Positions 1-13,484 of a DNA stretch of 13,727 nucleotides are shown piece after piece. The translations under genes were made by a program, and so were the position numbers. The notes under the pieces are model-generated. The model was not told the DNA's origin and searched no databases. It saw nothing but the letters and a program-made list of their open reading frames with translations. Position 1 is the first letter of the stretch, and the number at the start of each line of letters is the position of its first letter. Source of the stretch: Anaerolineales bacterium (lineage in GTDB: Bacteria > Chloroflexota > Anaerolineae > Anaerolineales > DRMV01); assembly GCA_027026295.1 (NCBI GenBank), contig JALVOR010000204.1:1-13727 (forward strand), in the 5' to 3' direction.

Positions 1-59
1 GCCAGCAACAAAGCAACCGCCAGGGCTAACACAAATGCAAAACGCCACGAATGCTTCAT
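1..59 (-). CDS. N-terminus of an exported protein (partial, runs off the left edge)
   Basis: An ATG at 59-57 on the minus strand opens a frame reading MKHSWRFAFVLALAVALLL before the window ends. It has a short basic n-region (Lys2, Arg6) followed by an unbroken hydrophobic stretch, which is a typical Sec signal peptide or N-terminal anchor. A strong ribosome binding site, AAGGAG, lies 7 bases upstream of the ATG (67-72), and a perfect TATAAT -10 box lies further upstream at 150-155. Only about 19 residues are visible, so the mature protein, and whether a lipobox cysteine follows, cannot be seen. The gene is divergent from dcd. Start and export signal are well supported; the function is unknown. 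Confidence 0.75.
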   Translation of the reverse strand, partial: MKHSWRFAFVLALAVALLL

Positions 60-149
60 AGAACACTCCTTGAAGTTGGGTAACGCGGGCATAACCGTCC
101 TTCTGATGGCAACGTAGAATGCCGCCACCTGAACGAAATTACAAGTTTC

Positions 150-155
150 ATTATA
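150..155 (-). promoter_or_regulatory. -10 box of the leftmost minus-strand gene
   Basis: Read on the minus strand, this is a perfect TATAAT. It would start transcription near 143 and give a 5' leader of about 84 bases before the ATG at 59. No good -35 hexamer is visible at 16-18 bases; the expected position falls on top of the -35 box of the divergent dcd promoter. Confidence 0.55.
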
Positions 156-174
156 CCTTACTTGGCTTTCCCGC

Positions 175-204
175 TTGACCTGCTGCCCATCGCTCGGCTA
201 TACT
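175..204 (+). promoter_or_regulatory. Sigma-70 type promoter of dcd
   Basis: TTGACC at 175-180 and TATACT at 199-204 are separated by 18 bases, each one mismatch from consensus. Transcription should begin near 211, leaving a leader of about 22 bases that carries the GGAGG ribosome binding site at 223-227. This is the best canonical promoter in the window. Confidence 0.7.
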
Positions 205-232
205 GGAAGCATCTTCCCCTTTGGAGGCAATC

Positions 233-787
233 ATGGGCTTGAAACCTGACCACTGGATTCGCAAAATGGCGTTGGAACACGGCATGATCGAGCCGTTCGT
301 GGAAAACCAGGTGCGCGAAGGCGTGCTTTCCTATGGCGTGTCTTCCTATGGTTACGACGTACGTGTGGCCGATGAGTTCAAGATTTTCACCAACGTCTAT
401 TCCACCGTCGTCGACCCCAAGGGCTTCGACACCCGCTCGATGGTGGATTTCAAGGGCGAAGTGTGCGTCATCCCGCCGAATTCCTTTGCCCTCGCCCGCA
501 CGGTGGAATACTTCCGCATCCCCCGCGGCGTGCTGACGCTGTGTGTGGGAAAATCCACCTATGCCCGCTGCGGCATCATTGTGAACGTCACCCCGCTGGA
601 ACCCGAGTGGGAAGGCTATGTCACGCTGGAAATTTCCAACACCACCCCGCTGCCCGCCAAAATTTACGCCAACGAGGGCATTGCCCAGATGGTTTTCTTC
701 GAAGCCGACGAGGAGTGCGAGACTTCTTATGCCGACAAGAAGGGCAAATACCAGCGCCAGCGCGGCATTGTGCTGCCGAAACTGTAG
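233..787 (+). CDS. dcd: dCTP deaminase
   Basis: Deaminates dCTP to dUTP, the precursor of dUMP for thymidylate synthesis, in the cytosol. The 184-residue protein contains the family signature: GVSSYGYD (35-42), GKSTYARCG (106-114) with the conserved Ser/Arg pair, and VTLEISN with the catalytic glutamate at about residue 133. It closely resembles the roughly 188-residue proteobacterial-type Dcd, and I see nothing of the extra domain of bifunctional dCTP deaminase/dUTPases, so dUTP is the expected product. I chose ATG 233 because GGAGG (223-227) sits five bases upstream; the in-frame TTG at 221 overlaps that ribosome binding site. A canonical promoter precedes it. The gene is divergent from an exported protein and is followed after 120 bases by a thiolase with no obvious functional link. 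Confidence 0.95.
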
Positions 788-793
788 GAAATG

Positions 794-894
794 GCGAGTT
801 GCGAGTTATGAATTGCGCAAAACGCCAAGGTAACCAATCGACGAAGTGACCAGGCAACCCATCCACCAATCAACCAGGCAATCAACCCATCCAC
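794..894 (+). repeat. Short tandem and direct repeats in the dcd-thiolase spacer
   Basis: The spacer begins with three 7-base units (GCGAGTT, GCGAGTT, ATGAATT at 794-814). It continues with a degenerate ACCAATC/ACCAGGC tract in which ACCAGGCAA...CCCATCCAC occurs twice (849-866 and 873-894, the second copy with a short insertion). No ORF or clear promoter is visible here. Confidence 0.6.
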
Positions 895-907
895 GCACGA
901 GGTTCCC

Positions 908-2038
908 ATGCCCGAAGCCTTCATCATTTCCGCCGTCCGCACCGCCGTAGGGAAAGGCAAACCCAACGGCGCGCTTTCCCCCTTTTTGCCTGTAGAACTT
1001 GCTGCCGCGGTGCTCACCGAGGCCGTGCAGCGGGCGGGCGTTCAGCCTGTATGGGTCGATGATGTCATTTGGGGTGTGGTGACGCCCATCCGCGACCAGG
1101 GCGCCAACCTGGGGCGGCTGGCCGTGCTCAAAGCCGGCTTCCCCGTGGAAGTGCCCGCGGTGAGCATCAATCGCATGTGCGGCTCCAGCCAGCAGGCCGT
1201 CCATTTCGCCGCGCAGGCCATCATGGCGGGTGATATGGATATTGTGGTGGCCGGCGGCACCGAGATGATGTCGCACCAGCCTCTGGGTGCAGATTACCCC
1301 GAAAAATGGCCTGAAATGCCCTACAAGATGGTGCACCAGGGCATCAGCGCCGAACTGATGGCCGAAAAATGGGGGCTGACGCGGGAAGAACTGGACGATT
1401 TCGGCTACGAAAGCCACCTGCGGGCCATGCGCGCCATCCAGGAAGGCCGCTTCGATGCCCAGATTCTGCCCCTTACCCGCCCCGACGGGCGCGTGGTGAA
1501 GGTGGACGAGGGCGTGCGGATGCCGCCCGACCGCGAGAAAATGCGCACCCTGCCGCCTGCTTTCAAGCCCGATGGCGTGGTCACGGCGGGCAACGCCAGC
1601 CAGATCAGCGACGGCGCGGCGGCGCTGGTGGTGGCTTCCGCCAAAGCCGTGGGACGCCATAATCTGGTGCCTCGCGCTCGCATCGTGGCGCGCGCCGTGG
1701 TCGGCGCCGACCTCACCCTGATGTTGGATGGCCCCATCCCGGCTACCCGCAAGGTGCTCAAAAAAGCCGGGCTGACCCTGGACGACATGGACGTGATCGA
1801 AATCAACGAAGCCTTTGCCAGCGTGGTGCTGGCATGGCAGCGGGAACTCCACCCCGACATGCGTAGGGTCAACCCCAACGGCGGCGCGATTGCCCACGGC
1901 CACCCCCTTGGCGCAACCGGTGCGATTTTGATGACCAAACTGCTCTATGAACTGGAACGCATCCGAGGACGTTATGGCCTGCAGGTGATGTGCATCGGCC
2001 ACGGCATGGCCACGGCGACCATTCTGGAGCGCGTCTGA
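908..2038 (+). CDS. Thiolase family protein (acetyl-CoA C-acyltransferase)
   Basis: Catalyses reversible thiolytic cleavage of a 3-ketoacyl-CoA, or condensation of two acyl-CoAs; typical roles are beta-oxidation or acetoacetyl-CoA formation. At 376 residues it has thiolase length and all catalytic elements: the nucleophile Cys91 in NRMCGSSQQA, the NEAF motif (300-303), the HGHPLGATGA motif with His332, and the acid/base Cys362 in MCIGHGMATATI. The final motif is usually CxGGGxGxA; here two glycines are His and Ala. The start has GAGG (899-902) five bases upstream. It is isolated from other fatty-acid genes, lying between dcd and rarA, so the substrate cannot be told; FadA-like and AtoB-like roles are both possible. 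An inverted repeat with a T-run follows the stop. Confidence 0.9.
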   Translation: MPEAFIISAVRTAVGKGKPNGALSPFLPVELAAAVLTEAVQRAGVQPVWVDDVIWGVVTPIRDQGANLGRLAVLKAGFPVEVPAVSINRMCGSSQQAVHFAAQAIMAGDMDIVVAGGTEMMSHQPLGADYPEKWPEMPYKMVHQGISAELMAEKWGLTREELDDFGYESHLRAMRAIQEGRFDAQILPLTRPDGRVVKVDEGVRMPPDREKMRTLPPAFKPDGVVTAGNASQISDGAAALVVASAKAVGRHNLVPRARIVARAVVGADLTLMLDGPIPATRKVLKKAGLTLDDMDVIEINEAFASVVLAWQRELHPDMRRVNPNGGAIAHGHPLGATGAILMTKLLYELERIRGRYGLQVMCIGHGMATATILERV

Positions 2039-2048
2039 GCGGGTTGCA

Positions 2049-2089
2049 AGATGCAGGATGCAAGTTGCAACCTGCATCCTGCAACTTTT
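2049..2089 (+). terminator. Palindrome with T-run after the thiolase gene
   Basis: Arms 2049-2066 and 2069-2086 pair over 18 bases with two mismatches, and TTTT (2086-2089) ends the right arm, giving a rho-independent-terminator shape 10 bases after the thiolase stop. The arms consist of ATGCAGG/ATGCAAG units. The same DNA covers the expected -35 region of the rarA promoter. Confidence 0.6.
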
Positions 2090-2099
2090 CCCCCCGTGC

Positions 2100-2114
2100 T
2101 ACAATATGAATATG
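2100..2114 (+). promoter_or_regulatory. Probable leaderless promoter of rarA
   Basis: TACAAT at 2100-2105 lies exactly six bases before the ATG at 2112. Transcription starting about seven bases downstream of the -10 box would begin at the start codon itself. No Shine-Dalgarno sequence is present. No convincing -35 hexamer is seen. Confidence 0.5.
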
Positions 2115-3458
2115 GACCTCTTCGACCACGCCCTCGCCAACGACGTCACTGCCCAGCCCCTCGCCGAGCGGATGCGCCCCCGCACCCTCGACGAACTCAT
2201 CGGGCAGGAGCACGTTTTGGGGCCGGGCAAGGTGCTCCGCCGCGCCATCGAGAGCGACCGCCTGTTTTCCTCCATTATCCTCTGGGGGCCGCCGGGCTGC
2301 GGCAAAACCACCCTTGCCCGCCTGATTGCCCGCCACACCCGCGGCGCGTTTGTCACCCTTTCGGCGGTGCTGGCAGGCAAAGCCGACCTGCGCAAAATCA
2401 TCGCTGCCGCCCAGGAACGCCGCAAATACCACCGCCAGCGCACCGTGCTTTTCATCGATGAGGTGCACCGCTGGAACAAAGCCCAGCAAGATGCCCTGCT
2501 GCCTCATGTGGAAAACGGCACCATCACCCTCATTGGCGCGACCACCGAAAACCCCTACTTCGAGGTCATCGCGGCGCTGGTTTCCCGCTCGCGCGTCTTC
2601 CAGTTGCGCCCGCTGGAACCGCACCACATCCGCCGCATTCTGGAAGCCGCCCTCACCGACCCCGAACGCGGCTACGGCAAGCGGAATGTGGCGCTGGCGC
2701 CCGAGGCACTTGATTTCCTCACGCAGGCCGCCCGCGGCGACGCCCGCAGCGCCCTCAACGCTCTGGAACTCGCGGTGGAAAGCACCCCGCCCGACGAGAG
2801 CGGGCGCATTGTGATCGCCCTGCCCACCGTGCAGGAAGCCATCCAGCAGCGCGCCGTGCTCTATGACAAGGACGGTGACGCCCACTACGACACGATTTCC
2901 GCCTTCATTAAATCCGTGCGCGGCTCCGACCCCGACGCTGCCCTCTACTGGCTCGCCAAAATGGTGGAAGCCGGTGAAGACCCCCGCTTCATCCTCCGCC
3001 GCCTGCTCATCCTCGCCGCGGAAGACATCGGCCTGGCCGACCCGCAGGCGTTAGTGGTGGCCCATGCCGCCGCACAGGCCTTCGAGTGGGTGGGGCTTCC
3101 CGAAGGCGTGTACCACCTCGCCGAAGCCACCCTCTACCTCGCCACTGCCCCCAAATCCAACAGCGCCAAAGCCTATTTTGCCGCCCGCGAGGCTGTGCGA
3201 AACAATGCCAATCCCGACGACGTCCCCCGCCACCTGAAAGACCCCAGCCGTGATGGCAAAGCGTTGGGCCACGGCAAGGGCTACCGCTACCCCCACAATG
3301 CTGCCGGGCATTTCGTTGTCCAGCAATACCTGCCCGACGGCCTGCAGGGGGCGCGTTTTTACACGCCTTCCGACCAGGGCTACGAGCGCACCATCGCCGA
3401 GCGGCTGGCAAAGTGGCGGGAGAAGGTGTCTGTTCAGCCCTGGCAGGGAAAAACCTGA
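2112..3458 (+). CDS. rarA: Replication-associated recombination protein A (RarA/MgsA AAA+ ATPase)
   Basis: A clamp-loader-like AAA+ ATPase acting at stalled replication forks; the E. coli and eukaryotic (Mgs1/WRNIP1) relatives bind SSB and DNA ends or gaps. The 448-residue protein starts with the family's usual MDLFD, then has RMRPRTLDELIGQEH (box II), Walker A GPPGCGKTT (59-67), Walker B FIDEVHRWNKAQQD, sensor 1 GATTENPYFEV, the SRSRVF arginine finger region and sensor 2 DARSALNALE. The C-terminal tetramerisation part begins near YDKDGDAHYDTISAFIKS. An in-frame ATG at 2106 and one at 2058 inside the palindrome would lengthen it; I chose 2112 because MDLFD is conserved and a -10 box lies six bases upstream. 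It lies 255 bases before ssb, in keeping with the RarA-SSB partnership. Confidence 0.95.
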   Translation: MDLFDHALANDVTAQPLAERMRPRTLDELIGQEHVLGPGKVLRRAIESDRLFSSIILWGPPGCGKTTLARLIARHTRGAFVTLSAVLAGKADLRKIIAAAQERRKYHRQRTVLFIDEVHRWNKAQQDALLPHVENGTITLIGATTENPYFEVIAALVSRSRVFQLRPLEPHHIRRILEAALTDPERGYGKRNVALAPEALDFLTQAARGDARSALNALELAVESTPPDESGRIVIALPTVQEAIQQRAVLYDKDGDAHYDTISAFIKSVRGSDPDAALYWLAKMVEAGEDPRFILRRLLILAAEDIGLADPQALVVAHAAAQAFEWVGLPEGVYHLAEATLYLATAPKSNSAKAYFAAREAVRNNANPDDVPRHLKDPSRDGKALGHGKGYRYPHNAAGHFVVQQYLPDGLQGARFYTPSDQGYERTIAERLAKWREKVSVQPWQGKT

Positions 3459-3459
3459 A

Positions 3460-3642
3460 AACCACAGAAGACGCAGAAGTGCCACCGAAAGCACGGAAAA
3501 CGAAACGCGGCGGGATGCGAGTCGCCGGATTGACAAAAAACTTTGCTTTGCGCTCTTTGCTCCCTCTGCGTCTCTTTGCGCCTCTTTGCGTTAAACCCGC
3601 ACTCATCCGTGATTACCCGCGTTCATCCGCGGGCTGTTTTCC
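3460..3642 (+). repeat. Composite intergenic repeat, copy A
   Basis: The rarA-ssb spacer holds no gene. A forward-oriented ACCACAGAAGACGCAGAAG tract (3460-3478) is followed by an inverse tract with TGCG spaced exactly ten bases apart (3567, 3577, 3587), ending in TTTGCGTTAA. Then come four degenerate ATCCGCG units up to GCGGGCTGTTTTCC (3629-3642). The part at 3586-3642 aligns without gaps to 8997-9053 (45 of 57 bases). Confidence 0.75.
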
Positions 3643-3655
3643 CTTCCGGGGAAAA
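3637..3655 (+). promoter_or_regulatory. Small hairpin just upstream of the ssb promoter
   Basis: TTTTCCC (3637-3643) and GGGAAAA (3649-3655) form a perfect 7-bp stem with a 5-base loop, ending 14 bases before the ssb -10 box. It partly overlaps the end of repeat copy A. Role unknown; an operator or a by-product of the repeat are both possible. Confidence 0.35.
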
Positions 3656-3666
3656 GCCCCCGCCTC

Positions 3667-3708
3667 TGGTACAATAGTGGTACACCCGTTCTAACACAGG
3701 AAAGGAGG
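3667..3708 (+). promoter_or_regulatory. ssb operon promoter, possible operator and ribosome binding site
   Basis: TACAAT (3670-3675) is the likely -10 box, predicting a start near 3682. TGGTACA occurs twice, at 3667-3673 and 3678-3684, eleven bases apart (one helical turn) and overlapping the -10 box, as an operator might. AAAGGAGG (3701-3708) is a near-perfect ribosome binding site five bases before the ATG at 3714, the strongest in the window. No good -35 hexamer is seen. Confidence 0.5.
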
Positions 3709-3713
3709 ACACC

Positions 3714-4145
3714 ATGTTTCAGCGCATTATCATTGTCGGCAATTTGGGGCGCGACCCCGAAATGCGTTACCTGCCCAGCGGCACGCCTGTGACCAACTTT
3801 TCCGTAGCCACCAACCGCACCTACACCAACGCCAACGGCGAAAAAGTGCAGGAAACCATCTGGTTCCGCGTCTCCGCGTGGGGCAAGCAGGCTGAAGTGA
3901 CCAATCAATACCTTCGCAAAGGCTCCAAAGTGCTGGTGGAAGGCCGCCTGGTTGCCGACCCCAACACCGGTGGGCCTCGCATCTGGACCCGTCAGGACGG
4001 CACTGCCGCCGCTTCCTTTGAAATTCACGCCTCCACTGTGCGTTTCCTCAGCACGCGCGAAGAAACCGCCGCAGCCGCCCAGGGCATGGGCGAAGGCGCA
4101 CCGGTGGATGACCTTCCTGCTGCTGAAGACGAAATCCCCTTCTAA
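3714..4145 (+). CDS. ssb: Single-stranded DNA-binding protein
   Basis: Coats single-stranded DNA in replication and repair and recruits partner proteins through its acidic C-terminal tail. The 143-residue protein opens with the typical MFQRIIIVGNLGRDPEMRY, continues through an OB fold (about residues 1-112, including NFSVATNR and WFRVSAWGKQAE) and ends with a short linker and DEIPF, the partner-docking tip. The linker is short compared with E. coli SSB, as is common outside Proteobacteria. A strong AAAGGAGG precedes the ATG. It is the first gene of a seven-gene run in which intergenic gaps are mostly under 25 bases. Usual ssb neighbours such as rpsF and rpsR are absent; instead it leads a nuclease-containing operon. 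Confidence 0.96.
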   Translation: MFQRIIIVGNLGRDPEMRYLPSGTPVTNFSVATNRTYTNANGEKVQETIWFRVSAWGKQAEVTNQYLRKGSKVLVEGRLVADPNTGGPRIWTRQDGTAAASFEIHASTVRFLSTREETAAAAQGMGEGAPVDDLPAAEDEIPF

Positions 4146-4151
4146 CCCTCC

Positions 4152-4178
4152 CGCGGGGCGCCAGAACGGTGCCCCGCG
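4152..4178 (+). promoter_or_regulatory. GC-rich hairpin between ssb and the next gene
   Basis: Arms 4152-4162 and 4168-4178 pair over 11 bases (one G-U type pair) around a 5-base loop. No T-run follows, so this is not a standard terminator. It could lower read-through, or protect the abundant ssb message at its 3' end from the less-needed downstream genes. Confidence 0.5.
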
Positions 4179-4190
4179 TGGTGACTTCCC

Positions 4191-4505
4191 ATGAACAAGA
4201 AGAATGCACCCCCGAGGATGCGCCTGCCCGCCGATGCGCCCCTCGTCTACACCAACATGGCGCGCATTGCCCACACCCGTACCGAATTCCTGATCGACCT
4301 GGCGCGCTACCTCCCGGGCGAACCCGACGCCGCCGTGCAGGCCCGCGTGCTGCTCACGCCCCTGAGCGCCAAACTGCTCCACCGCGCCCTGGGCGACAGC
4401 CTGGCGCGCTACGAATCCGCCTACGGCGAGATTCCCCTGCCCGGCTCGCCCAGCCTTGCCGACGTGCTTTTCCACCCGCCGAAAGACGACCCGCCCACGG
4501 AATGA
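4191..4505 (+). CDS. DUF3467 family protein
   Basis: A 104-residue protein of unknown function. The core VYTNMARIAHTRTEFLIDLA (residues 20-39), followed by a LPGEPDAAVQARVLLTP segment and SAKLLHRALGDSLARYESAYGEI, fits my memory of the DUF3467 family (small bacterial and archaeal proteins with a Y(T/S)N...H...EF(L/V)(I/L)D motif and an LTP...AK segment). The N-terminus is basic and the C-terminus Pro/Asp-rich and probably disordered. The ribosome binding site is weak. It follows ssb after 45 bases containing a hairpin and stops four bases before the TRAX-like gene, so it is probably translated in coupling with it. No membrane segment or catalytic motif is seen. Confidence 0.8.
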   Translation: MNKKNAPPRMRLPADAPLVYTNMARIAHTRTEFLIDLARYLPGEPDAAVQARVLLTPLSAKLLHRALGDSLARYESAYGEIPLPGSPSLADVLFHPPKDDPPTE

Positions 4506-4509
4506 CCCC

Positions 4510-5148
4510 ATGCCCAAACTGGAAGCCATCGCCGAAGCCCTGCACGCCGATCTGGAAGCCCGCACCGCGGCGCGCGACCGTGCCCTTGCCAACGCCCGCC
4601 AACTTATCCGCTTCTGCGCTCACGCCATCCGCGCCGTCCACCGCGACGACCACGCCCAGGCCGCCGAAAAACTGGCTGCCGCCCGTGCCCTTGCCGAGGA
4701 ACTGCGCGCCGACCTGGCCGCTTTCCCCGAACTGTATTACGCGGGCTACACCCAGGACGCGCTGAAAGAATTTGCCGAAGCCAGCATCGTGCACGCCCTG
4801 ACGCGCGACGGCGAAATTCCCGGCCCCGCCGAACTCGGCATCCCGGCATCGGCTTACGTGCGCGGCCTTGCCGAAACCGTGGGCGAACTGCGCCGTCGGG
4901 TGCTCGACCTGCTGCGGCATGGCTACTCTGCCGAAATCGAGCGCCTGCTGGGGCTGATGGACGACATCTACGCCGTGCTCGTTACCATGGATTACCCCGA
5001 CGCCGTGACCTATGGCCTGCGCCGCCTGACCGACATTGCCCGCAGCCTGCTGGAACGTACCCGCGGCGATGTCACCCTGGGCTTGCGCCAGCAGGTGCTG
5101 GAAGGCGCTCTCAGCCGCCTGGAAAGCCGCCTCGCCGACGAGACCTGA
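4510..5148 (+). CDS. TRAX/translin-like protein
   Basis: A 212-residue, almost wholly alpha-helical protein matching the translin/TRAX superfamily. Eukaryotic translin and TRAX form C3PO, an RNA/ssDNA-binding barrel whose TRAX subunit is an RNase; archaeal homologues are known to form similar assemblies. Visible hallmarks: the basic ALANARQLIRFCAHAIRAVHR helix start, GYTQDALKEFAEASIVHAL with Glu87 and Glu90 spaced as in the TRAX catalytic pair, then VGELRRRVLDLLRHG and LLGLMDDIYAVLVTMDYPD. Which acid supplies the third TRAX catalytic position is unclear (Asp in MDD or MDYPD). ATG 4510 is four bases after the DUF3467 stop; an upstream in-frame ATG would overlap that gene. The operon with ssb and a nuclease suggests a nucleic-acid role; that is inference. 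Confidence 0.8.
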   Translation: MPKLEAIAEALHADLEARTAARDRALANARQLIRFCAHAIRAVHRDDHAQAAEKLAAARALAEELRADLAAFPELYYAGYTQDALKEFAEASIVHALTRDGEIPGPAELGIPASAYVRGLAETVGELRRRVLDLLRHGYSAEIERLLGLMDDIYAVLVTMDYPDAVTYGLRRLTDIARSLLERTRGDVTLGLRQQVLEGALSRLESRLADET

Positions 5149-5169
5149 CCCGCACGGAAGGCCTTGCCC

Positions 5170-5412
5170 ATGCGAACCATCCGCGCTTCCGAACTCGGCA
5201 CGTACCTCTACTGTGCCCGCGCGTGGGGCTATGCCCGCAAGGGCTACCCCTCGGCCAACGAAGAGCGCATGCAAGCCGGTTTGGTTTACCATGAGCAGCA
5301 CGGGCGGGAGGTCTTTACCATTCGCCTGCTCAAACTGGCAGGTTGGGCGCTGCTGCTCTTTGCCCTTACTGCCCTTGCCGCGTGGTGGGCGTGGCACTTC
5401 ACCGGGGGGTGA
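5170..5412 (+). CDS. Small membrane protein carrying the N-terminal part of a Cas4-like nuclease
   Basis: An 80-residue ORF with GGAAGG eight bases before its ATG. Residues 6-45 read ASELGTYLYCARAWGYARKG...M(x2)G(x3)H, which is the N-terminal signature of Cas4/Dna2-type proteins: a Y-C-x-R segment whose Cys15 would be the first ligand of the Fe-S cluster, and a Gly37/His41 motif-I-like region. It then has one transmembrane segment (about 53-76, LLKLAGWALLLFALTALAAW) and stops. The nuclease core and remaining three cysteines are in the next ORF, seven bases downstream in another frame. A run of six G (5404-5409) sits at the stop, so the two ORFs may be separate subunits, a programmed frameshift, or an indel. 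Not independently recognised as a named family. Confidence 0.75.
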   Translation: MRTIRASELGTYLYCARAWGYARKGYPSANEERMQAGLVYHEQHGREVFTIRLLKLAGWALLLFALTALAAWWAWHFTGG

Positions 5413-5419
5413 CGCCGCC

Positions 5420-5941
5420 ATGACCGCCCTTTATTTCATCGGCATCGTTGCGCTGCTGGGCGTTTTTCTGCTGTGGCTGAGCACCCGCCGCCGCAAAAAA
5501 ATTGGGCTTCCCGCGGGCAAAGTGGTTTACAGCGATACGGGCATCCGGCGCGAACTGGAAAAGCCCCTCTACGACCGCTCGTTGGGGCTGACAGGCCGCC
5601 CCGATTATCTCATCGAGCAGGGCGATTTCCTCATTCCGGTGGAAGTCAAATCGTCCAAAGCGCCGCCTGCGCCCTATGACAGCCACATTTACCAGTTGGC
5701 TGCCTATTGCCTGCTGGTGGAACGCCAGATGGGCAAGCGGGTGCCTTACGGGCAACTGCAATACGCCGATCGCACTTTCCGCATTGATTACACCCCCAAA
5801 CTGGCTGACCAGTTACTGGAACTCCTTGCCGATATGCGCCGTGCCGAGCGCCGCGGCGGGCTGCCGCCGCGTTCCCACGAAACGGCGGCGCGTTGCCGCG
5901 CGTGCGGCTTCCAGGAAGTTTGCGACCAAAGCCTGGCTTGA
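5420..5941 (+). CDS. Membrane-anchored Cas4-like PD-(D/E)XK nuclease core
   Basis: A 173-residue protein: an N-terminal transmembrane helix (about 3-20), a basic stop-transfer stretch RRRKK, then a Cas4/Dna2-type PD-(D/E)XK nuclease. Catalytic residues visible are Asp62 in GRPDYL, Glu75 and Lys77 in PVEVKSSK, and Gln92/Tyr96 in YQLAAYCLLVE (RecB motif). The C-terminus has CRACGFQEVC (Cys159, Cys162, Cys168), three of the four Fe-S cysteines of Cas4; the fourth is Cys15 of the preceding small ORF. Cas4-family enzymes are Fe-S exonucleases or endonucleases on ssDNA ends. No cas1/cas2 or CRISPR array is in the window, so this is probably a stand-alone relative. It starts seven bases after the preceding stop and ends nine bases before nadK. 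Confidence 0.85.
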   Translation: MTALYFIGIVALLGVFLLWLSTRRRKKIGLPAGKVVYSDTGIRRELEKPLYDRSLGLTGRPDYLIEQGDFLIPVEVKSSKAPPAPYDSHIYQLAAYCLLVERQMGKRVPYGQLQYADRTFRIDYTPKLADQLLELLADMRRAERRGGLPPRSHETAARCRACGFQEVCDQSLA

Positions 5942-5950
5942 GAGGATGCC

Positions 5951-6844
5951 ATGACACCGATTTCACCCAAGGATATCCCCTTCCAGCGCATCGTGATTGC
6001 TGCTCACCCCCAGATCGGGGAAGCCCACGCCGAGGGGCAGCAGGTTGCCGCGTTCCTGCAGCGCCACGGCATTGATGTCTATGCCGGTACGCTTTACGAA
6101 GACGAAGTGCGCCGCCGGGTGAGCGAAGGCGAAGCCGACCTGCTCATTGCCTTGGGCGGCGATGGCACCATGCTACGCGCCGGGCACCTTTGCGCCCCCT
6201 ATGGCGTGCCGGTTTTGGGCATCAACATGGGACACTTTGGTTTTCTCATCGAGGTGGAACGCCACGAGTGGCCGCATACCATGCGCCAACTGCTGCTGGG
6301 CGAAGCCTGGATCGAGGAACGCATGATGCTGGCTGCCCATTTGCATCGCGGCAAGGAAATCCTCCAGCGGTGGGACGTGGTCAACGAGGTGGTGGTCAGC
6401 CGCGGCCAGTACGTGCGCCCCATCAAGGTGACGGCCTATGTGGATGACCTGCTGCTGGCGCGCTATGTGGCCGACGGGCTGATTACCGCCACGCCCACCG
6501 GCTCGACGGCCTACGCGCTGGCTGCCGGCGGCCCGATTTTGCCGCCCGAACTGCGTAACATCCTGCTGATGCCCGTCGCGCCGCACCTCTCGGTGGATCG
6601 CGCCGTGGTGCTTTCCGAAGGCAGCACGGTGACGCTGGAAATTGGCACGGAGCATGAAGCGGTCGTGAGTGTGGACGGCCACGACCCGGTGCATCTGGAA
6701 AACGGCGACCGGGTGCACGTGCGCGCCAACACCTACCCGTTGAAGTTCGTGCGCTTCCGCGGGCGCGGTTATTTCTATCGCAACCTGACTTCCTACATGA
6801 ACTGGAACCCCACCGTTGAGAAAGAAAGCCACCGGGGGAATTAA
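5951..6844 (+). CDS. nadK: NAD kinase
   Basis: Phosphorylates NAD+ to NADP+ in the cytosol. The 297-residue protein has the diagnostic LGGDGTML (68-75) with the catalytic Asp71, GINMGHFGFL (90-99, usually NxGxLGFL), the VNE motif with Asn145/Glu146, and ADGLITATPTGSTAYALAAGGPI, the NAD-binding signature. The C-terminal SVDGH segment is also present. Length is normal for the bacterial enzyme. GAGG (5942-5945) lies five bases before the ATG, overlapping the end of the preceding stop region; the gap to the nuclease gene is nine bases. Chloroflexota and related groups have several nadK placements, so co-transcription with the nuclease may be incidental. Confidence 0.95.
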   Translation: MTPISPKDIPFQRIVIAAHPQIGEAHAEGQQVAAFLQRHGIDVYAGTLYEDEVRRRVSEGEADLLIALGGDGTMLRAGHLCAPYGVPVLGINMGHFGFLIEVERHEWPHTMRQLLLGEAWIEERMMLAAHLHRGKEILQRWDVVNEVVVSRGQYVRPIKVTAYVDDLLLARYVADGLITATPTGSTAYALAAGGPILPPELRNILLMPVAPHLSVDRAVVLSEGSTVTLEIGTEHEAVVSVDGHDPVHLENGDRVHVRANTYPLKFVRFRGRGYFYRNLTSYMNWNPTVEKESHRGN

Positions 6845-6847
6845 ACC

Positions 6848-7813
6848 ATGCGCCACGGACGGCATTTGTTGCTGCTCTTTTTGCTTTTGGGGTTGCTGGG
6901 CGCCTCCGCCTGCTCGGCAAACCCGGCCATCGCGCCTGCTCCGGGCGCGCCCCAGGGCGCTGCCACGGCAACGGCCACGCCCTTCGCCCCGGCATCACAA
7001 ACGCCTATTCCCCCCACAGTGACTTTTACCCCCACGGCGGCTGCTTATCAGCCCGCCACTGTGCAATTCGCCGTGATTGGCGATTTCGGCCTGGCCGGCC
7101 CCGCCGAAGCCCACGTCGCCGACCTGGTGCATTCCTGGCACCCTGATTTCATCGTCACTGTGGGCGACAACAATTACCCCAACGGGCAGCACGATACCGT
7201 GAAGGAAAACGTCCTGCAATATTACGGCGACGACATCCGCGCCGGGCGCTTTTACCCCGCTTTGGGAAACCACGACTGGCACCAAAACGACATCAGTTCG
7301 TTCATCCACGACCTGCGCCCGCCCAATGGCCGCCGCTATTACGATTTTGTGGTGGGGCCAGTGCACATTTTCGTGCTGGATAGCGACTACCGCGAACCCG
7401 ACGGCAGCACCGCCGATAGCCCGCAAGGGCACTGGCTGCACGATGGCCTGCAGGCTTCCACTTCGCCGTGGAACATTGTCATTTTGCACCATCCGCCCTA
7501 TTCCTCAGGCCGCCACGGCAGCCAGGAACGCTCGCAGTGGCCCTTTGCCCAATGGGGTGCCGATGCCGTGATTGCCGGGCACGACCATGATTATGAGCGC
7601 ATCCTGCGCGACGGCATTGTGTATTTCATAGACGGCCTGGGTGGCATTCCCGGCCCCTATTATTTCAAGCCTGTGCCGGTGGAAGGCAGCGTGGTGCGTT
7701 ACCGCGAGAACTACGGAGCGCTGCGTGTCACAGCCACGGCCACCTCACTGAAATTTGAATTCATCAACGTTGCCAATCAGGTGGTGGATTCCTATACCCT
7801 TGGTGACCATTAA
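6848..7813 (+). CDS. Lipoprotein metallophosphoesterase (purple-acid-phosphatase-like)
   Basis: A secreted, probably lipid-anchored calcineurin-like phosphoesterase of 321 residues. The signal peptide (1-21) is strongly hydrophobic and ends in GASAC with Cys22 as the likely lipidation site, although Ala rather than Leu at -3 makes the lipobox imperfect. A Thr/Pro/Ala-rich linker (about 30-65) follows. The catalytic motifs are in order: GDFG (78-81), GDNNY (106-110), GNHDW (140-144), HHPPYSSGRHG (from 214) and GHDHDYER (244-251), all metal ligands of the binuclear site. The arrangement resembles tartrate-resistant acid phosphatases; the physiological substrate is unknown. It starts three bases after nadK and is the last gene of the operon. 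Confidence 0.9.
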   Translation: MRHGRHLLLLFLLLGLLGASACSANPAIAPAPGAPQGAATATATPFAPASQTPIPPTVTFTPTAAAYQPATVQFAVIGDFGLAGPAEAHVADLVHSWHPDFIVTVGDNNYPNGQHDTVKENVLQYYGDDIRAGRFYPALGNHDWHQNDISSFIHDLRPPNGRRYYDFVVGPVHIFVLDSDYREPDGSTADSPQGHWLHDGLQASTSPWNIVILHHPPYSSGRHGSQERSQWPFAQWGADAVIAGHDHDYERILRDGIVYFIDGLGGIPGPYYFKPVPVEGSVVRYRENYGALRVTATATSLKFEFINVANQVVDSYTLGDH

Positions 7814-7835
7814 CGACAGATGCTCGCGGGCTGTT

Positions 7836-8010
7836 GAACGCAGAGGCACAGAGGAAGCAAAGAGCGCAGAGAAATAACGCCAGGGCGCAGAGAGACGTAA
7901 AGGCGCAAAGCCAATGCAGCGCGCTCCGTTTTCCGTGTTTTCAGTGCCTGCTCTGTGCCTCCTGTGGCTTTCAGTCTGCGGCATCTGCGGTTGCTCTTTT
8001 TCGGCGCTAA
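7836..8010 (+). repeat. Degenerate CGCAGAG-type intergenic repeat in inverted arrangement
   Basis: The 223-base spacer between the phosphoesterase and the lipid kinase has no gene. Its left half repeats CGCAGAGGCACAGAGG / GCGCAGAG / GGCGCAAAG units; its right half carries the complementary form. GAGGCACAGAG (7843-7853) and CTCTGTGCCTC (7951-7961) are a perfect 11-base inverted repeat. The ATCCGCG module found in copies A-D is not evident here. Confidence 0.65.
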
Positions 8011-8036
8011 ACGATGATCACCCTTGAGGCAAAACC

Positions 8037-8966
8037 ATGACGGCGTTTATCCTTCTCAATCCCTATGCCAACCGCTGGCAGGCCGGGCGGCAGCGCGCTG
8101 CGGTGGAAGACGCTTTCCGCCGCGCGGGCGTGGCCTGCACCCTTGCCGTCACCGAGCACCCGCGGCACGCCATTGACCTGGTTGCCGAGGCCGTGCAGGC
8201 GGGCTACGCGCCCATTGTGGCCGCCGGCGGCGACGGCACCATCGGCGAAGTCGTCAACGGCATGGCGCGCGGTGCGGGCGATGCCCCTTGGCCGCCGCTG
8301 GGAGTGCTCCCGCTGGGCACCGCCAACGATTTGGTGGACAACGTCGGCCTGCCCCGCGACCTGAACGCTGCCGTGGCAGCCATTGCCCGCGGCAGGGCCC
8401 GCCCGATGGACGCGCTGCGCATGACCGTGCGCGATGCCGACGGCAACACCACCGTGTGGTACAGCGTGAACAACACGGCCTTGGGGCTGGAACCGACCAT
8501 CACCTGGTTGCAGCAGGAAATGCGCTGGGCGAAGGGCACGCTGCGCTATTTGCTGGCGACCCTGCGGGGCATCCTGAGGCACCCCATCTGGCAGGCAACC
8601 CTCAAATGGGAAGGCGGCGAATACCGCGGGGCGGTCAACCTGGTTTCCGTGGGCAATCACCGGCGCACCGGCGGGCTGTTTTACATGACGCCCCACGCCG
8701 ATGGCTTCGACGGCCTGCTGACCTTCATCTACGGTCACGCCCCCACCCGCAGGCGGGTGCTGCAAGCCCTGCCCCACGCCCTGCGCGCCGAAGAAGGTCA
8801 CATTGCCACCGTGCCCGAAATCCACGAAGTGCACAGCCCCTGGCTGGAAGTCGGCCTCACCCCCGCCAGCCCCTTCCACGCCGACGGCGAACTCTACGTG
8901 CTGAATGCGGTGCAGGTGCGCTATGAGGCGCTGGCGGGGCAGGTAAAGTTGGTGGTGGGGGATTGA
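8037..8966 (+). CDS. Diacylglycerol-kinase-family lipid kinase
   Basis: Belongs to the DgkB/YegS-type soluble lipid kinases that phosphorylate diacylglycerol or related lipids at the inner face of the membrane. The 309-residue protein starts with ILLNPYANRWQAGR (typical N-P-x-A/S-G region), has the nucleotide-binding GGDGTIGEVVNGM (64-76) and LPLGTANDLVDNVGLP (from 92; canonical GT-x-NDF/L), and ends in a beta-rich C-terminal domain containing GGLFYMTPHADGFDGLL and an HADGE motif. GAGG lies ten bases before the ATG. It stands alone between repeat-filled spacers. The exact lipid substrate cannot be told; diacylglycerol, undecaprenol-like lipids or phosphatidylglycerol are possible. Confidence 0.92.
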   Translation: MTAFILLNPYANRWQAGRQRAAVEDAFRRAGVACTLAVTEHPRHAIDLVAEAVQAGYAPIVAAGGDGTIGEVVNGMARGAGDAPWPPLGVLPLGTANDLVDNVGLPRDLNAAVAAIARGRARPMDALRMTVRDADGNTTVWYSVNNTALGLEPTITWLQQEMRWAKGTLRYLLATLRGILRHPIWQATLKWEGGEYRGAVNLVSVGNHRRTGGLFYMTPHADGFDGLLTFIYGHAPTRRRVLQALPHALRAEEGHIATVPEIHEVHSPWLEVGLTPASPFHADGELYVLNAVQVRYEALAGQVKLVVGD

Positions 8967-9057
8967 GGCAATTCAGGAATTGCACCTGGTGCGCCTTTGT
9001 GTTAAATCCGTGCCTATCCGCAATCATCCGCGTTCATCCGCGGGCCATTTTCCAAAG
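8967..9057 (+). repeat. Composite intergenic repeat, copy B, with two small palindromes
   Basis: Right after the lipid kinase stop come two small palindromes, GCAATTC-AG-GAATTGC (8968-8983) and GCACC-T-GGTGC (8982-8992). Then comes a single GCGCCTTTGTGTTAAA unit and the ATCCGTG/ATCCGCG module, ending GCGGGCCATTTTCC (9040-9053) and AAAG. The segment 8997-9053 aligns to copy A at 3586-3642. Confidence 0.75.
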
Positions 9058-9099
9058 GTTGCACAGTTACTTGTCAGGGCTGGAGAAGTTCCCCTGTAG

Positions 9100-9114
9100 T
9101 ACAATATCGCCATG
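9100..9114 (+). promoter_or_regulatory. Probable leaderless promoter of the decarboxylase gene
   Basis: TACAAT at 9100-9105 lies exactly six bases before the ATG at 9112, so the transcript should begin at the start codon. No ribosome binding site is present. TTGTCA (9071-9076) resembles a -35 box but is 23 bases away, too far for the usual spacing. Confidence 0.5.
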
Positions 9115-10542
9115 ACGTCCCCTGAACTGCCCCCTGAGGCCATCCGCGAACTGGGTCGCCGGGTGGCCGATTTCGTTACTGGGTACCTCACGGCTTTAGG
9201 CGATCAGCCTGTTGCCGCCCACACCACGGCGGCGGATTTGCGCGCCCTGCTGGAAGAACCCCTGCCCCGCCAGCCGCAGGGCATCGAGGGCGCTTTCGAC
9301 GATTTCCTGCAGAAAGTGGCCGCCCCCTCGGTGCGGGTGGGGCATCCCCGCTTTCTGGCGTGGATGCGCACCTCGCCGCTGGCGGGGGCGGTTTTCGCCG
9401 AGGCGCTGGCCGCCGCGCTCAACCAGTCGGTGGCGGTGTGGCAGGGCGCGCCCGCGGCCACCGAGGTGGAACGCTTAGTGCTGCGCTGGCTGCTCGGTCT
9501 CACCGGCTACGCGCCCGACGCCGAGGGCATCCTCACTTCGGGCGGCTCGATGGCAAATTTCATCGGCCTGCTGCTCGCCCGCCAGGCTGCTTTCCCCGAC
9601 GTGCGGGAACACGGCGTGCGCAGCCTGCCGCCGGTGGCGTTCTACCTTAGCCCGGAAACCCACTATTCTTCGGTCAAGGCCATCGAAATGATGGGCTTTG
9701 GCAAGGATGCCGTGCGCTGCGTGCCCACCGACCGCAGCCGCCGGATGCACCCGCTTTCGCTGCGCCGCGCCATCCGCAGCGACCGGCGGGAAGGCATTGT
9801 GCCCGTGGCCGCCGTCGCGACTTTGGGCACCACCGCCACCGGCGCGTGCGACCCCGTCGCCGAAATTGCCGAGATTTGCGCCGAAGAGGGCCTCTGGCTG
9901 CATGTGGATGGGGCTTATGGCGGGCTTTCGGCGGCCATTCCCACCGCCGCCAACTGCGCCCGCGGCCTCGCCCGGGCCGATTCTTTCACCGTTGACCCCC
10001 ACAAGATCCTCTTCGTGCCCTTCGAGGCAGGCGCGGTTTTCACCCGCCACCGCGGGCTGCTGCCCGCCACCTTTGCCACCCGCGCCGCTTACCTGCCCAA
10101 CGCCGAGGACGAAGGCTTTCACTTCCGCGATTACGGCCCGCAACTTTCGCGTAACTTCCGCGCCCTGAAAATCTACCTCACCCTGAAAATCTACGGCATG
10201 GACGCCATCATCCACGCCTGGGAACGCCAGCACCGCCTTGCGGCGCAGTTTGGGGCGCAAGTCGAAGCCGCCGCCGATTTCCAACTGCTCGCGCCGGTTT
10301 CGTTGGGCATTGTCACCTTCCGCTATGCGCCGCCCGACCTCGGCGAAGCCGCCCTCGATGCCCTCAACAAGGCGCTGGTGCCCGTGCTGCAGCGGCACGG
10401 CAAAGCCTTCCTTTCGCTCACCCATCTGGGGGAAACCGAAGCCCTGCGGGCGTGCTTCATCTCTTACCGCACCACCGAAGCCGACCTGCCCCTGCTGCTG
10501 GAAGCCGTGCGGGAAGCCGGGCAGGAAGCACTCGCCGCCTGA
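9112..10542 (+). CDS. Pyridoxal-phosphate-dependent (group II) amino acid decarboxylase
   Basis: A 476-residue fold-type I PLP enzyme of the aromatic-L-amino-acid/glutamate decarboxylase group, forming an amine plus CO2. Landmarks: GHPRFLAWM (77-85), the substrate-pocket region LNQSVAVWQGAPAATEVE (103-120), TSGGSMANFIGLLLAR (142-157), LGTTATGACDP (239-248), HVDGAYGG with Asp266 for the PLP ring nitrogen, and SFTVDPHK with the PLP-binding Lys298. After the lysine, ILFVPFEAGAVF replaces the WLF(V/C) segment of animal enzymes. Tyrosine, tryptophan, DOPA or glutamate cannot be distinguished from sequence alone. The ATG is six bases from a -10 box. mutY follows after six bases, with its ribosome binding site overlapping this gene's stop codon. 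Confidence 0.92.
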   Translation: MTSPELPPEAIRELGRRVADFVTGYLTALGDQPVAAHTTAADLRALLEEPLPRQPQGIEGAFDDFLQKVAAPSVRVGHPRFLAWMRTSPLAGAVFAEALAAALNQSVAVWQGAPAATEVERLVLRWLLGLTGYAPDAEGILTSGGSMANFIGLLLARQAAFPDVREHGVRSLPPVAFYLSPETHYSSVKAIEMMGFGKDAVRCVPTDRSRRMHPLSLRRAIRSDRREGIVPVAAVATLGTTATGACDPVAEIAEICAEEGLWLHVDGAYGGLSAAIPTAANCARGLARADSFTVDPHKILFVPFEAGAVFTRHRGLLPATFATRAAYLPNAEDEGFHFRDYGPQLSRNFRALKIYLTLKIYGMDAIIHAWERQHRLAAQFGAQVEAAADFQLLAPVSLGIVTFRYAPPDLGEAALDALNKALVPVLQRHGKAFLSLTHLGETEALRACFISYRTTEADLPLLLEAVREAGQEALAA

Positions 10543-10548
10543 GGCTGC

Positions 10549-11628
10549 ATGAACGCTGCCCTTTCGCCCCTCGCCGCCGCCCTGCTGGCCTGGTACGCTG
10601 TTCACAAGCGCGCCCTGCCGTGGCGCGACCATCCCGACCCCTACGCGGTGTGGGTTTCCGAAGTGATGTTGCAGCAAACCCAGGTGGCGACGGTGATGCC
10701 CTACTTCGCCCGCTGGATGCAGCGTTTCCCCACGGTGGAAGCCTTAGCCGCGGCGGACGAGCAGGAGGTGCTCGCCCTGTGGGAAGGGCTGGGCTATTAC
10801 CGCCGGGCGCGGGCGCTGCACCGGGCCGCGCGGGAAATCGTCGCCCGCCACGGGGGAAGCCTGCCCGCCGACCCCAGCGCCCTGCAAAGCCTGCCCGGTA
10901 TCGGCAAATATACCGCCCATGCGATTGCTTCGCTGGCTTTCGGGCGCGATGTGGCGGTGCTGGATGGCAATGTCAGGCGGGTGTTTGCCCGCGTGGCGGC
11001 GTTAGAAACGCCCATCGACACCGCTGCGGGCGAGAAGGCGCTGTGGGCGTTAGCGGAAAGCCACCTGCCGCCGGGGCGCGCCGTCGATTACAACCAGGCG
11101 CTGATGGATTTGGGCGCCACGGTCTGCACGCCGCGCGCGCCGCGCTGCGTTGCCTGCCCGCTAACTGCTTTTTGCAAAGCCCGGCAAAACGGCAACCCCG
11201 AAGCCTTCCCCAAAAAGCAGCGCCGCCAGCGGCAGCCCCATTACACCGTGGTGGCCGCGGTCATCCGCCGCGGCGGGCGCGTGCTCATCGCCCAGCGCCC
11301 CGCCGAGGGGTTGCTGGGCAGCCTGTGGGAGTTTCCGGGCGGCAAGGTCGAGCAGGGGGAAACGTTAGAAGCCGCCCTGCGGCGGGAAATTCGGGAAGAA
11401 CTGAATGCGGAAATTGCCGTCGAAGCCCCCTTTGGCGTCTACCGCCATGCTTACACCCATTTTCGGGTGACGCTGCACGCCTTTCTGGCACGGCTGGAAG
11501 GCAGTGAACCGCAAGCCGTGCAGGTGCAGGCGCTGCGGTGGGTTTCCCCGGAAGCGTTGGCCGGTTTCCCCATGGGCAAAATCGACCGCCAGATTGCCCG
11601 CCGCTGCCGCGAGGCATGTGGCGGCTAA
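10549..11628 (+). CDS. mutY: A/G-specific adenine glycosylase with C-terminal Nudix domain
   Basis: Removes adenine mispaired with 8-oxoguanine in base excision repair. The 359-residue protein shows WVSEVMLQQTQV with catalytic Glu38, the helix-hairpin-helix LPGIGKYTA (115-123), VLDGNVRRV with catalytic Asp139, and the [4Fe-4S] cluster C-x6-C-x2-C-x5-C at Cys193, 200, 203 and 209. The C-terminal part (about 230-355) is a Nudix domain. Unlike E. coli MutY, its Nudix box looks complete: Gly265, Glu271, Arg279-Glu280 and Glu283-Glu284, with Asn286 instead of the usual Gly. A GAGG overlapping the decarboxylase stop (10541-10544) serves the ATG. The stop codon overlaps that of the convergent DedA gene. 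Confidence 0.96.
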   Translation: MNAALSPLAAALLAWYAVHKRALPWRDHPDPYAVWVSEVMLQQTQVATVMPYFARWMQRFPTVEALAAADEQEVLALWEGLGYYRRARALHRAAREIVARHGGSLPADPSALQSLPGIGKYTAHAIASLAFGRDVAVLDGNVRRVFARVAALETPIDTAAGEKALWALAESHLPPGRAVDYNQALMDLGATVCTPRAPRCVACPLTAFCKARQNGNPEAFPKKQRRQRQPHYTVVAAVIRRGGRVLIAQRPAEGLLGSLWEFPGGKVEQGETLEAALRREIREELNAEIAVEAPFGVYRHAYTHFRVTLHAFLARLEGSEPQAVQVQALRWVSPEALAGFPMGKIDRQIARRCREACGG

Positions 11629-12224
11629 TCTTCCGCCGGCTTCCCCTCGGCCAGCCAGTCGTTCATTGCGTTGCGGGCTGCGCGGGTAATGACGAATACG
11701 AAAATGACGAACCCCACCACCGCTGCCACGCGGAAGCCTACCGCCAGGTAGGTGATTTTATCCCACAACATATAGCCGATGAAGGTGAGGAAGGCAATCC
11801 AGGAAATTTCCCCCAGCAGCACGGCGCCTAACAACTTGCGCCACGGCACCTGCGCGATGCCCGCGGCGATCAGCGCGGGCACGCCGCTCAGCGTGAACTT
11901 GGCAAACAACAGGAAAGCCACTGCCCGCTCCCGCAGTTTGCGTTCCAGCGGGCGCACTAAGGGGTAGCGTTTCTCGACTTTCTCCATCCAGTGGCCGCGT
12001 TCGCTTACCCAGCGCCCCACGCGAAACCAGAACGCGTCGGCAGCCAGGTTGGCTAATACCGCCGTCCAGAAGACCTTCCACGGGTCGAGCAGCCCGGTGG
12101 CGGCAAGCACGGCACCGGCAATGGTGGTGGTGGGGCCTTCCAGGAAGACCAGCGCACCAAACCACAAATAGTGCCAGTGCGCCGCGTGATGGAGAACCCA
12201 TTGCATCGTAGGTAGATGAGGCAT
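11625..12224 (-). CDS. DedA/VTT-domain integral membrane protein
   Basis: A 199-residue polytopic membrane protein of the DedA (SNARE-associated/VTT) superfamily, members of which act in lipid transbilayer movement, membrane homeostasis or drug resistance. Recognisable features are FLEGPTTTIAGAVLAATGLL (the conserved E-x-P/x-P re-entrant-loop-like region), DAFWFRVGRWVSERG (matching the usual D-x2-Y-x-GR-x-G), and FAKFTLSGVPALIAAGIAQVPWRKL (usual F-x-R-F-x-P-x4-AG). Here Lys stands in the usual Arg position. Hydrophobic segments lie near residues 18-44, 49-66, 100-125, 129-150 and 158-180. The ATG at 12224 is six bases from a TAAAAT box. It converges with mutY, sharing the bases of the stop codons. 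Confidence 0.85.
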   Translation of the reverse strand: MPHLPTMQWVLHHAAHWHYLWFGALVFLEGPTTTIAGAVLAATGLLDPWKVFWTAVLANLAADAFWFRVGRWVSERGHWMEKVEKRYPLVRPLERKLRERAVAFLLFAKFTLSGVPALIAAGIAQVPWRKLLGAVLLGEISWIAFLTFIGYMLWDKITYLAVGFRVAAVVGFVIFVFVITRAARNAMNDWLAEGKPAED

Positions 12225-12236
12225 TGCGCTATTTTA
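12222..12236 (-). promoter_or_regulatory. Probable leaderless promoter of the DedA-family gene
   Basis: On the minus strand TAAAAT (12236-12231) is followed by six bases and the ATG (12224-12222), the same spacing as at rarA and the decarboxylase. No Shine-Dalgarno sequence is visible. TTACCT lies 17 bases upstream of the -10 box and is only a weak -35. Confidence 0.5.
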
Positions 12237-12272
12237 CCCGATAGTTTTCCACAAGGTAACTGTTCAGCCTTT

Positions 12273-12446
12273 GAGTCTATCTGAAAATTCTTTGCAGATG
12301 AGTCACTGCGAGGTGGGCTGAGCAATGACGAAGCCCGCCGAAGCAGTCTCCTGACCGATAAAAAGGGGGGATTGCTTCGCCCTGGAGCCTGCGCCGAGCG
12401 CAGTGAGGGGGGGCTCGCAATGATACAATATTTTTCGGATAGAGTC
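12273..12446 (+). mobile_element. Palindromic MITE/REP-like element
   Basis: Most of the gene-free stretch 12225-12590 is an imperfect palindrome of about 174 bases with nested arms. Outer arms 12273-12289 and 12430-12446 match at 14 of 17 positions. Middle arms TCACTGCGAG (12303-12312) and CTCGCAATGA (12414-12423) match at 9 of 10. Inner arms 12339-12351 and 12367-12379 match at 11 of 13. The right half also has a perfect CTGCGC-CGA-GCGCAG hairpin (12389-12403). From memory, TCATTGCGAG...GAAGCAATCTC...GATTGCTTCG...CTCGCAATGA elements recur in many unrelated genomes. It encodes no protein, so any movement would need a transposase in trans. No target duplication is obvious. Confidence 0.65.
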
Positions 12447-12565
12447 TTTGGGAAACAGCTCGCAGACGAGCGCGGATAATATGCGAATGGACGCGGATCT
12501 AACACAAGGGCGCAGAGAGGCGCAAAGATGCAGAGAGAGATGCCAGGGTTGCCAAGTAGGGCGAG
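12445..12565 (-). repeat. Composite intergenic repeat, copy C (reverse orientation)
   Basis: Read on the minus strand it runs CTCTCTGCATCTTTGCG, CCTCTCTGCGCC, CTTGTGTTAGATCCGCG, further CCGCG-like units and GCGAGCTGTTTCCCAAAGAC. It has the same order of modules as copies A and B, with one extra base in the middle. Its far end (12445) abuts the palindromic element. Confidence 0.7.
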
Positions 12566-12590
12566 ATAGTTTCTCTTTGGAACCGAACAG

Positions 12591-13367: not shown

Positions 13368-13401
13368 GCTGCTTCGCCTTGTTGACGTCTTGCAACAGGC
13401 G

Positions 13402-13407
13402 ATTGTA
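13402..13407 (-). promoter_or_regulatory. -10 box of the ABC ATPase gene
   Basis: TACAAT on the minus strand, preceded by TGT, predicts a start near 13395 and a leader of about 28 bases containing the AAGG ribosome binding site. No consensus -35 is seen at 16-18 bases. Confidence 0.45.
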
Positions 13408-13484
13408 ACACACTCCTCCTCGGTGCCGCGGCAACTTTCCCATACGGGCGCACGCAAATGTTGTAGAAGCGTGGTTGTTCGTCT

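Follow-up and report, generated by a model that had tools for sequence, protein, structure and literature searches.

Two small membrane proteins of Chloroflexota very probably make up one Cas4-type iron-sulphur nuclease

The window analysed here, the whole stretch of 13,727 nucleotides, corresponds to contig C204 in the 2.15 Mb draft assembly of an Anaerolineales bacterium (388 contigs, 82.5% complete). It holds two short open reading frames (ORFs), ORF1 and ORF2, separated by seven bases and read in different frames. Their start and stop codons stand where an initial annotation of this DNA had put them, as do the residues it had singled out (Cys15 of ORF1; D62, E75, K77 and Cys159/162/168 of ORF2). 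We find it highly probable that the two chains are subunits of one membrane-tethered nuclease of the Cas4 type, carrying an iron-sulphur (Fe-S) cluster. The computed basis for this comprises separate conserved genes, joint occurrence, residue conservation, hydrophobic segments, a charge bias and a joint fold prediction; from it we infer a physical complex, an Fe-S cluster, nuclease activity and a membrane topology. The features of the pair are as follows.

5170..5412, + strand: ORF1, 80 residues, ATG at 5170 and TGA at 5410-5412; putative Cas4 N-lobe chain with one C-terminal transmembrane helix
5212..5214, + strand: codon of Cys15 (ORF1), putative first Fe-S cysteine, invariant in the ORF1 alignment
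5290..5292, + strand: codon of His41 (ORF1), resembling the motif-I His of the RecB/Cas4 fold; invariant among the aligned ORF1s
5326..5382, + strand: predicted transmembrane helix 1, ORF1 residues 53-71, from hydropathy; within predicted helix 31-77
5404..5409, + strand: run of six G directly 5' of the ORF1 stop codon, unconserved
5420..5941, + strand: ORF2, 173 residues, ATG at 5420; predicted transmembrane helix, PD-(D/E)XK core and three putative Fe-S cysteines
5423..5479, + strand: predicted transmembrane helix 2, from hydropathy, spanning ORF2 residues 2-20 and with a K/R-rich stretch after it; within helix 84-111 predicted in the joined model
5603..5605, + strand: codon of Asp62 (ORF2), putative catalytic Asp in GxPDY, from residue conservation
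5642..5650, + strand: codons of Glu75-Val-Lys77 (ORF2), the ExK motif, from residue conservation
5894..5923, + strand: codons of Cys159, Cys162 and Cys168 (ORF2), the remaining three putative Fe-S cysteines, from residue conservation

ORF2 matched the Pfam family Cas_Cas4 (PF01930; E 1e-10, 42.4 bits against a cut-off of 22.7) and the NCBIfam model TIGR00372 cas4 (E 5.8e-22, 78.4 bits against a cut-off of 65), the latter over profile positions 51-178. ORF1 aligned with positions 2-44 of the same TIGR00372 profile, with a score below the 65-bit cut-off (E 0.0022, 17.9 bits). Because both fall on one profile in this way, the two chains tile one Cas4. The catalytic residues of the PD-(D/E)XK fold are complete over both chains, with H41 in ORF1 and D62, E75, K77, Q92 and Y96 in ORF2, and the four cysteines of Cas4 are present only when the chains are taken jointly (C15 with C159, C162 and C168). 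Cas4-family enzymes are usually single soluble proteins; here, instead of one soluble polypeptide, there are two ORFs with a hydrophobic helix in each. Thus a Cas4 fold appears to be divided over two genes so that the catalytic His and one cluster Cys lie on one chain and the remainder on the other.

Of the 199 class genomes searched, 148 hold a relative of ORF2 at E up to 1e-3; 137 of these matches were strong (E up to 1e-15), and the 11 weak ones were set apart. Loci were fetched for 136 of the 137 strong genomes (all except G100), and 91 of them carry an ORF1 homologue upstream on the same strand. A search of genome contigs gave a further set of 80 loci, kept from 276 relatives, whose record titles we take to be Chloroflexota names; ORF1 lies upstream on the same strand in 65 of these, 15 have no flanking ORF1, and the set is not independent of the class set, with which it has genomes in common. 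M1, C15, G37 and H41 are invariant in the ORF1 alignment (78 rows), and D39, G59, P61, D62, P73, E75, K77, Q92, Y96, L99, Y115, C159, C162 and C168 in that of ORF2 (109 rows). Among the 91 linked class ORF1s, C15 is kept in 91, G37 in 90 and H41 in 90; each of the three is kept in 20/20 unlinked ORF1s (those fetched out of 44) and in 64, 65 and 65, respectively, of the 65 ORF1s from the contig search. All eight ORF2 residues, catalytic and cysteine, are kept in 89/91 linked and 44/45 other class ORF2s and in 80/80 loci of the contig set, the exceptions in the class being one single-chain locus (L160, described below) and two rows cut by contig ends. This recurrence of the invariant residues across ORF1s and ORF2s exceeds chance.

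Genomes nearly always retain both halves, even when the genes are far apart. We counted pairs over the 199 genomes with ORF2 at E up to 1e-15 and an ORF1 profile at E up to 1e-10, after setting apart weak matches (ORF2 in 11 genomes; ORF1 in three, G060, G079 and G107, at E >1e-10). Both halves were found in 135 genomes, ORF2 only in 2, ORF1 only in 2 and neither in 60 (Fisher p 7e-46, uncorrected for ancestry). The ORF2-only genomes are G043, where 312 bases separate the ORF2 start from the end of a contig, and G107, which holds the single-chain L160; the ORF1-only genomes, G044 and G166, are 82 and 83% complete. The pair occurs in 40 of the 53 families of the class sample. In 44 of the 135 pair genomes the two genes do not lie within 4 kb of each other; they are on the same contig in 3 and on different contigs in 41, where a contig break in a draft can hide closeness. 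The one-contig genome G010 has them at 0.24 and 3.05 Mb. On a quick tree of 132 ORF2s, the near and apart states must have switched 14 times or more, 7 rows with too little upstream sequence being given no state. A divided fold whose halves can sit at distant loci and are still retained together is one reason for interest in this pair.

As the initial annotation had said, each chain has a membrane segment: the window chains have one hydrophobic segment each (ORF1 53-71, ORF2 2-20), and so do their relatives. A hydrophobic segment of 19 residues is present in 88/88 ORF1s, a count that leaves out L160 and the short rows L077 and L165, and in 132/135 ORF2s, the misses (L069, L164 and L165) being seemingly truncated or frame-broken. 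The ORF2 count used upstream in-frame start codons; the first choice of starts had left 24/130 without the helix. Lysine and arginine average 3.64 before and 0.52 after the ORF1 helix (88 rows), and 0.04 before and 3.54 after the ORF2 helix (106 rows). The positive-inside rule relates flanking positive charge to the cytoplasmic side. Positive charge before the first helix and after the second therefore suggests, by simple hydropathy and charge count rather than a trained topology predictor, that both catalytic halves are cytoplasmic.

In structure predictions of the joined chain, both halves entered one Cas4 fold, as judged by fold-level correspondence and confidence, and the Fe-S tail was confidently placed only with ORF1 present. 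In the arrangement that we propose, the cytoplasm would hold the N-terminus of ORF1 and the C-terminus of ORF2, and the single transmembrane helices of the two chains would pack as a hairpin. The ORF1 lobe, bearing Cys15 and His41, could then dock on the ORF2 core at the cytoplasmic side, so that a metal site (His41 with D62, E75 and K77) and an Fe-S cluster (Cys15 with Cys159/162/168) would each form only in the complex. Such a nuclease, which may exist solely as two chains assembled in the membrane, would be open to experimental test.

One rival explanation is that the true gene is a single fused ORF, 256 residues long, interrupted in the window by an assembly indel or read by programmed slippage. 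The run of six G that the initial annotation reported is present right at the ORF1 stop, and reading one four-base step there yields the 256-residue joined protein it had described. A hairpin-bearing fusion also occurs naturally in one distant genome (L286 in G218:C135, 1653-2714), where a single frame of 353 codons holds an N-lobe, two hydrophobic helices and a core; in it Asp62 is Ala and Glu75 is Asp, and its genus-mate L287 (G311) is split, with Thr at Asp62 and Asp at Glu75. This fusion speaks for the two halves belonging together, though not for activity in that genome. Against a fused gene in the family, ORF1 is a separate ORF in 90 of the 91 close-by class loci; the 91st, L160 (G107:C23), is a single chain of 190 residues without hairpin or membrane helices, in which the Glu of ExK is Leu and Tyr96 is His. 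None of the 80 loci of the contig set has one frame that matches both profiles. Among 4411 matches to the joined protein, the best 120 are 169-195 residues long, the length of ORF2 alone, and the nearest of these (94% identity) begins with its own Met just before the transmembrane helix. With the chosen start codons, the spacing of the two genes lies between a 4-base overlap and 200 bases at 59 loci; at 31, where other genes are inserted, it is at least 643 bases, and further copies are unlinked. In the 59 short-gap loci the ORF2 frame relative to ORF1 is mixed (21/28/10 over the three offsets), and a run of five or more G stands at the ORF1 stop in only 5, the window among them. Given the mixed frames and the rarity of the G-run, the family cannot be accounted for by slippage or by an indel at 5404-5409; relatives keep the split and do not keep the G-run, and we rate the chance of a fused gene as next to negligible. 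Joined to the profile tiling and the shared predicted fold, the retained split upholds the earlier proposal of one Cas4-type enzyme over two chains.

Three further explanations were weighed. ORF2 might be a complete nuclease and ORF1 an independent small membrane protein whose Cas4-like motif is accidental; the weak match of ORF1 to Cas4 and the position of the genes >4 kb apart or on different contigs in 44/135 genomes speak for this, and yet ORF2 lacks an N-lobe, the motif-I His and a fourth Cys, which are exactly what ORF1 supplies, ORF1 is present in 135 of the 137 ORF2-bearing genomes, and the Fe-S tail needs ORF1 to be confidently placed, so we regard independence as very improbable. Alternatively, the pair might be a CRISPR (clustered regularly interspaced short palindromic repeats) adaptation Cas4 tethered to the membrane, as its family fold and profiles and the naming of several public ORF2 records as ‘CRISPR-associated exonuclease Cas4’ would allow. 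However, a search of the window's genome, which is 82.5% complete, gave no Cas1, and among the 199 genomes Cas1, present in 120, is independent of the pair (85/135 with it against 35/64 without, p 0.28). Of 150 listed Cas1 places, 119 are in 80 ORF2 genomes, and none of these lay <340 kb from ORF2 on one contig, in drafts of which many contigs are short. Adaptation Cas4 is encoded with cas1/cas2; the Cas1 distribution shows no such arrangement, cas2 itself not having been searched, and the recurrent neighbours are housekeeping genes. We rejected a CRISPR link on the Cas1 distribution and places, and a tethered adaptation Cas4 is very unlikely. Finally, catalytic losses in L160 and L286-L288 might point to a degenerate or inactive relic with a structural role only; the near-complete retention of the eight ORF2 residues in the linked, other and contig sets argues against it and makes a relic highly improbable.

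Several points weigh against the two-subunit nuclease that we favour. The joined model was computed from a chain read through both ORFs, together with 10 rows of the same kind, and the linker itself could favour docking; in sequence, ORF1 resembles known Cas4 weakly (E 0.0022 and 0.011); the co-occurrence statistic takes no account of common ancestry; and the role proposed below is a guess, for which the rarity of RmuC in pair-bearing genomes gives no more than a hint. Conservation also loosens outside the class. Across 201 genomes sampled from the phylum (E up to 1e-6), 48 gave an ORF1 match and 80 gave ORF2-like sequences, among them weak Cas4 paralogues. The 20 loci examined from other classes mostly have two ORFs again, but just 10 of 19 ORF1s have G37 and H41 in the aligned position, with D62 kept in 16, E75 in 17, Y96 in 15, K77 and Q92 in 19 and the cysteines in 19 of 20 ORF2s. 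Seven loci (L276-L280, L294 and L295) have a longer ORF1 of about 138-158 residues from stop to stop, with the motif-I His off the aligned place, and by their sequences appear to be a divergent subgroup of the pair. Separate ORFs are also found in two cultured, named organisms, Longilinea arvoryzae and Pelolinea submarina, the latter with a complete chromosome.

The pair resembles known systems in part. The whole joined model except the hairpin has the fold of Cas4 from type I CRISPR adaptation (e.g. 8d3l, 7mi4), with which it shares the four cysteines and the D-ExK-QxxxY core; in contrast to that Cas4, it is two chains with a membrane helix each and no Cas1 link. The nuclease domains of EXO5, MGME1 and AdnAB/AddAB have the same superfamily fold and are single chains or domains of soluble enzymes. 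RmuC (PF02646) is a membrane-anchored protein with a nuclease fold, single-chained and without Fe-S cysteines; the pair is similar in its predicted anchored fold and differs in having two chains and Fe-S cysteines. A Pfam scan at E up to 1 gave no RmuC match to ORF1 or ORF2. As judged by the Cas1 places and the independence from Cas1, the pair lies outside CRISPR-cas loci, in the manner of solo-Cas4. In its main text, Hudaiberdiev et al. 2017 (PMC5704561) describes a monophyletic solo-Cas4 carried by many Chloroflexi and a module of four conserved cysteines in all family members. This solo-Cas4 is plausibly our ORF2 family; unlike the module described there, one cysteine here lies on another gene. 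A word search of that main text found neither ‘transmembrane’ nor ‘split’, and a literature search whose scope did not extend to preprints, most subscription papers and supplements found no report of a divided or membrane-bound Cas4.

The genes that adjoin the pair are the following.

4510..5148, + strand: TRAX/translin-like gene, often upstream of ORF1, by profile and structure-family matches (queried as 4507-5145); no demonstrated part in the enzyme
5951..6844, + strand: NAD kinase gene, adjoining ORF2 downstream, by profile match

The upstream gene matches AfTRAX (3zc1) at E 2.2e-19; NCBIfam models of the PRK14562 group label its product ‘haloacid dehalogenase superfamily protein’. Elsewhere the window presumably carries dCTP deaminase, RarA-like ATPase, SSB and MutY-like genes (1-13727), and by the look of its sequence we take the contig to be rich in DNA maintenance. 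Neighbours in the 90 linked stretches include the translin-like gene (64), NAD kinase (27), DUF3467 (16) and SSB (9), and RecN, named from a look at the sequence, is near ORF2 in 18/136 stretches. The locus looks like a stable chromosomal one and not a defence island, no defence-system library having been run. The translin-like gene, found in 64/90 linked, 7/20 unlinked ORF1 and 0/45 ORF1-less ORF2 stretches, was considered as a third subunit; its presence in 180/199 class genomes (131/135 with the pair, 49/64 without; p 1.4e-5, uncorrected for ancestry) makes it look like a neighbour rather than a dependent partner, though it may still be functionally linked to the pair. In G079, a short ORF1-like piece with an internal stop (C119:45397-45489) follows directly on a translin-like gene (44763-45389); a profile search found no ORF2 in this genome, and the piece looks as if it had decayed after loss of its partner.

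With less assurance than for the pairing itself, we suggest that the enzyme may be a chromosomal housekeeping single-strand DNA exonuclease at the inner membrane face, outside CRISPR adaptation; membrane-bound, cytoplasm-facing processing of DNA ends or single strands is the most likely role, held with low confidence. RmuC is rarer in genomes with the pair (16/135 against 22/64, p 3.8e-4, uncorrected for ancestry; 10/135 against 12/64, p 0.027, at E up to 1e-30), in one of four exploratory gene comparisons (Cas1, ComEC, translin and RmuC). ComEC, considered as a hint of DNA uptake, showed no association (124/135 with the pair against 55/64 without, one unidentified genome of the 21 lacking a match being scored present). 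It is possible, though doubtful, that the pair is a phylum-wide housekeeping nuclease and an obligate heterodimer sharing active site and Fe-S cluster, which assembly in the membrane would switch on for a step done elsewhere by RmuC or another enzyme. If so, such an enzyme would mark out DNA processing at the membrane as a distinct step in Chloroflexota. In family f37, RmuC occurs in 7 of 9 genomes and the pair in 2 of 9.

Public protein databases hold at least 4388 ORF2-like and at least 2173 ORF1-like matches. Among 120 listed ORF2-like records, those that are named are called Cas4, several of them ‘CRISPR-associated exonuclease Cas4’; our results suggest that such Chloroflexota records of ~170 residues are half-enzymes untied to CRISPR adaptation. 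Names among 120 listed ORF1-like records are ‘hypothetical protein’, ‘CRISPR/Cas system-associated exonuclease Cas4 (RecB family)’ and, in a few, sulfurtransferase; automatic annotation has thus already caught the Cas4 likeness of some ORF1s. The pairing proposes a function for this large family of proteins of about 84 residues without a Pfam domain.

Where the two genes are at least 643 bases apart (e.g. L046, L110, L145), a proline-rich protein family lies between the halves. The longest ORF of the interval belongs to one BLAST-linked group in 28 of the 31 wide-gap loci, and 23 of the 31 carry an IH[GS]...SxGCIR motif, which we take to be that of an L,D-transpeptidase.
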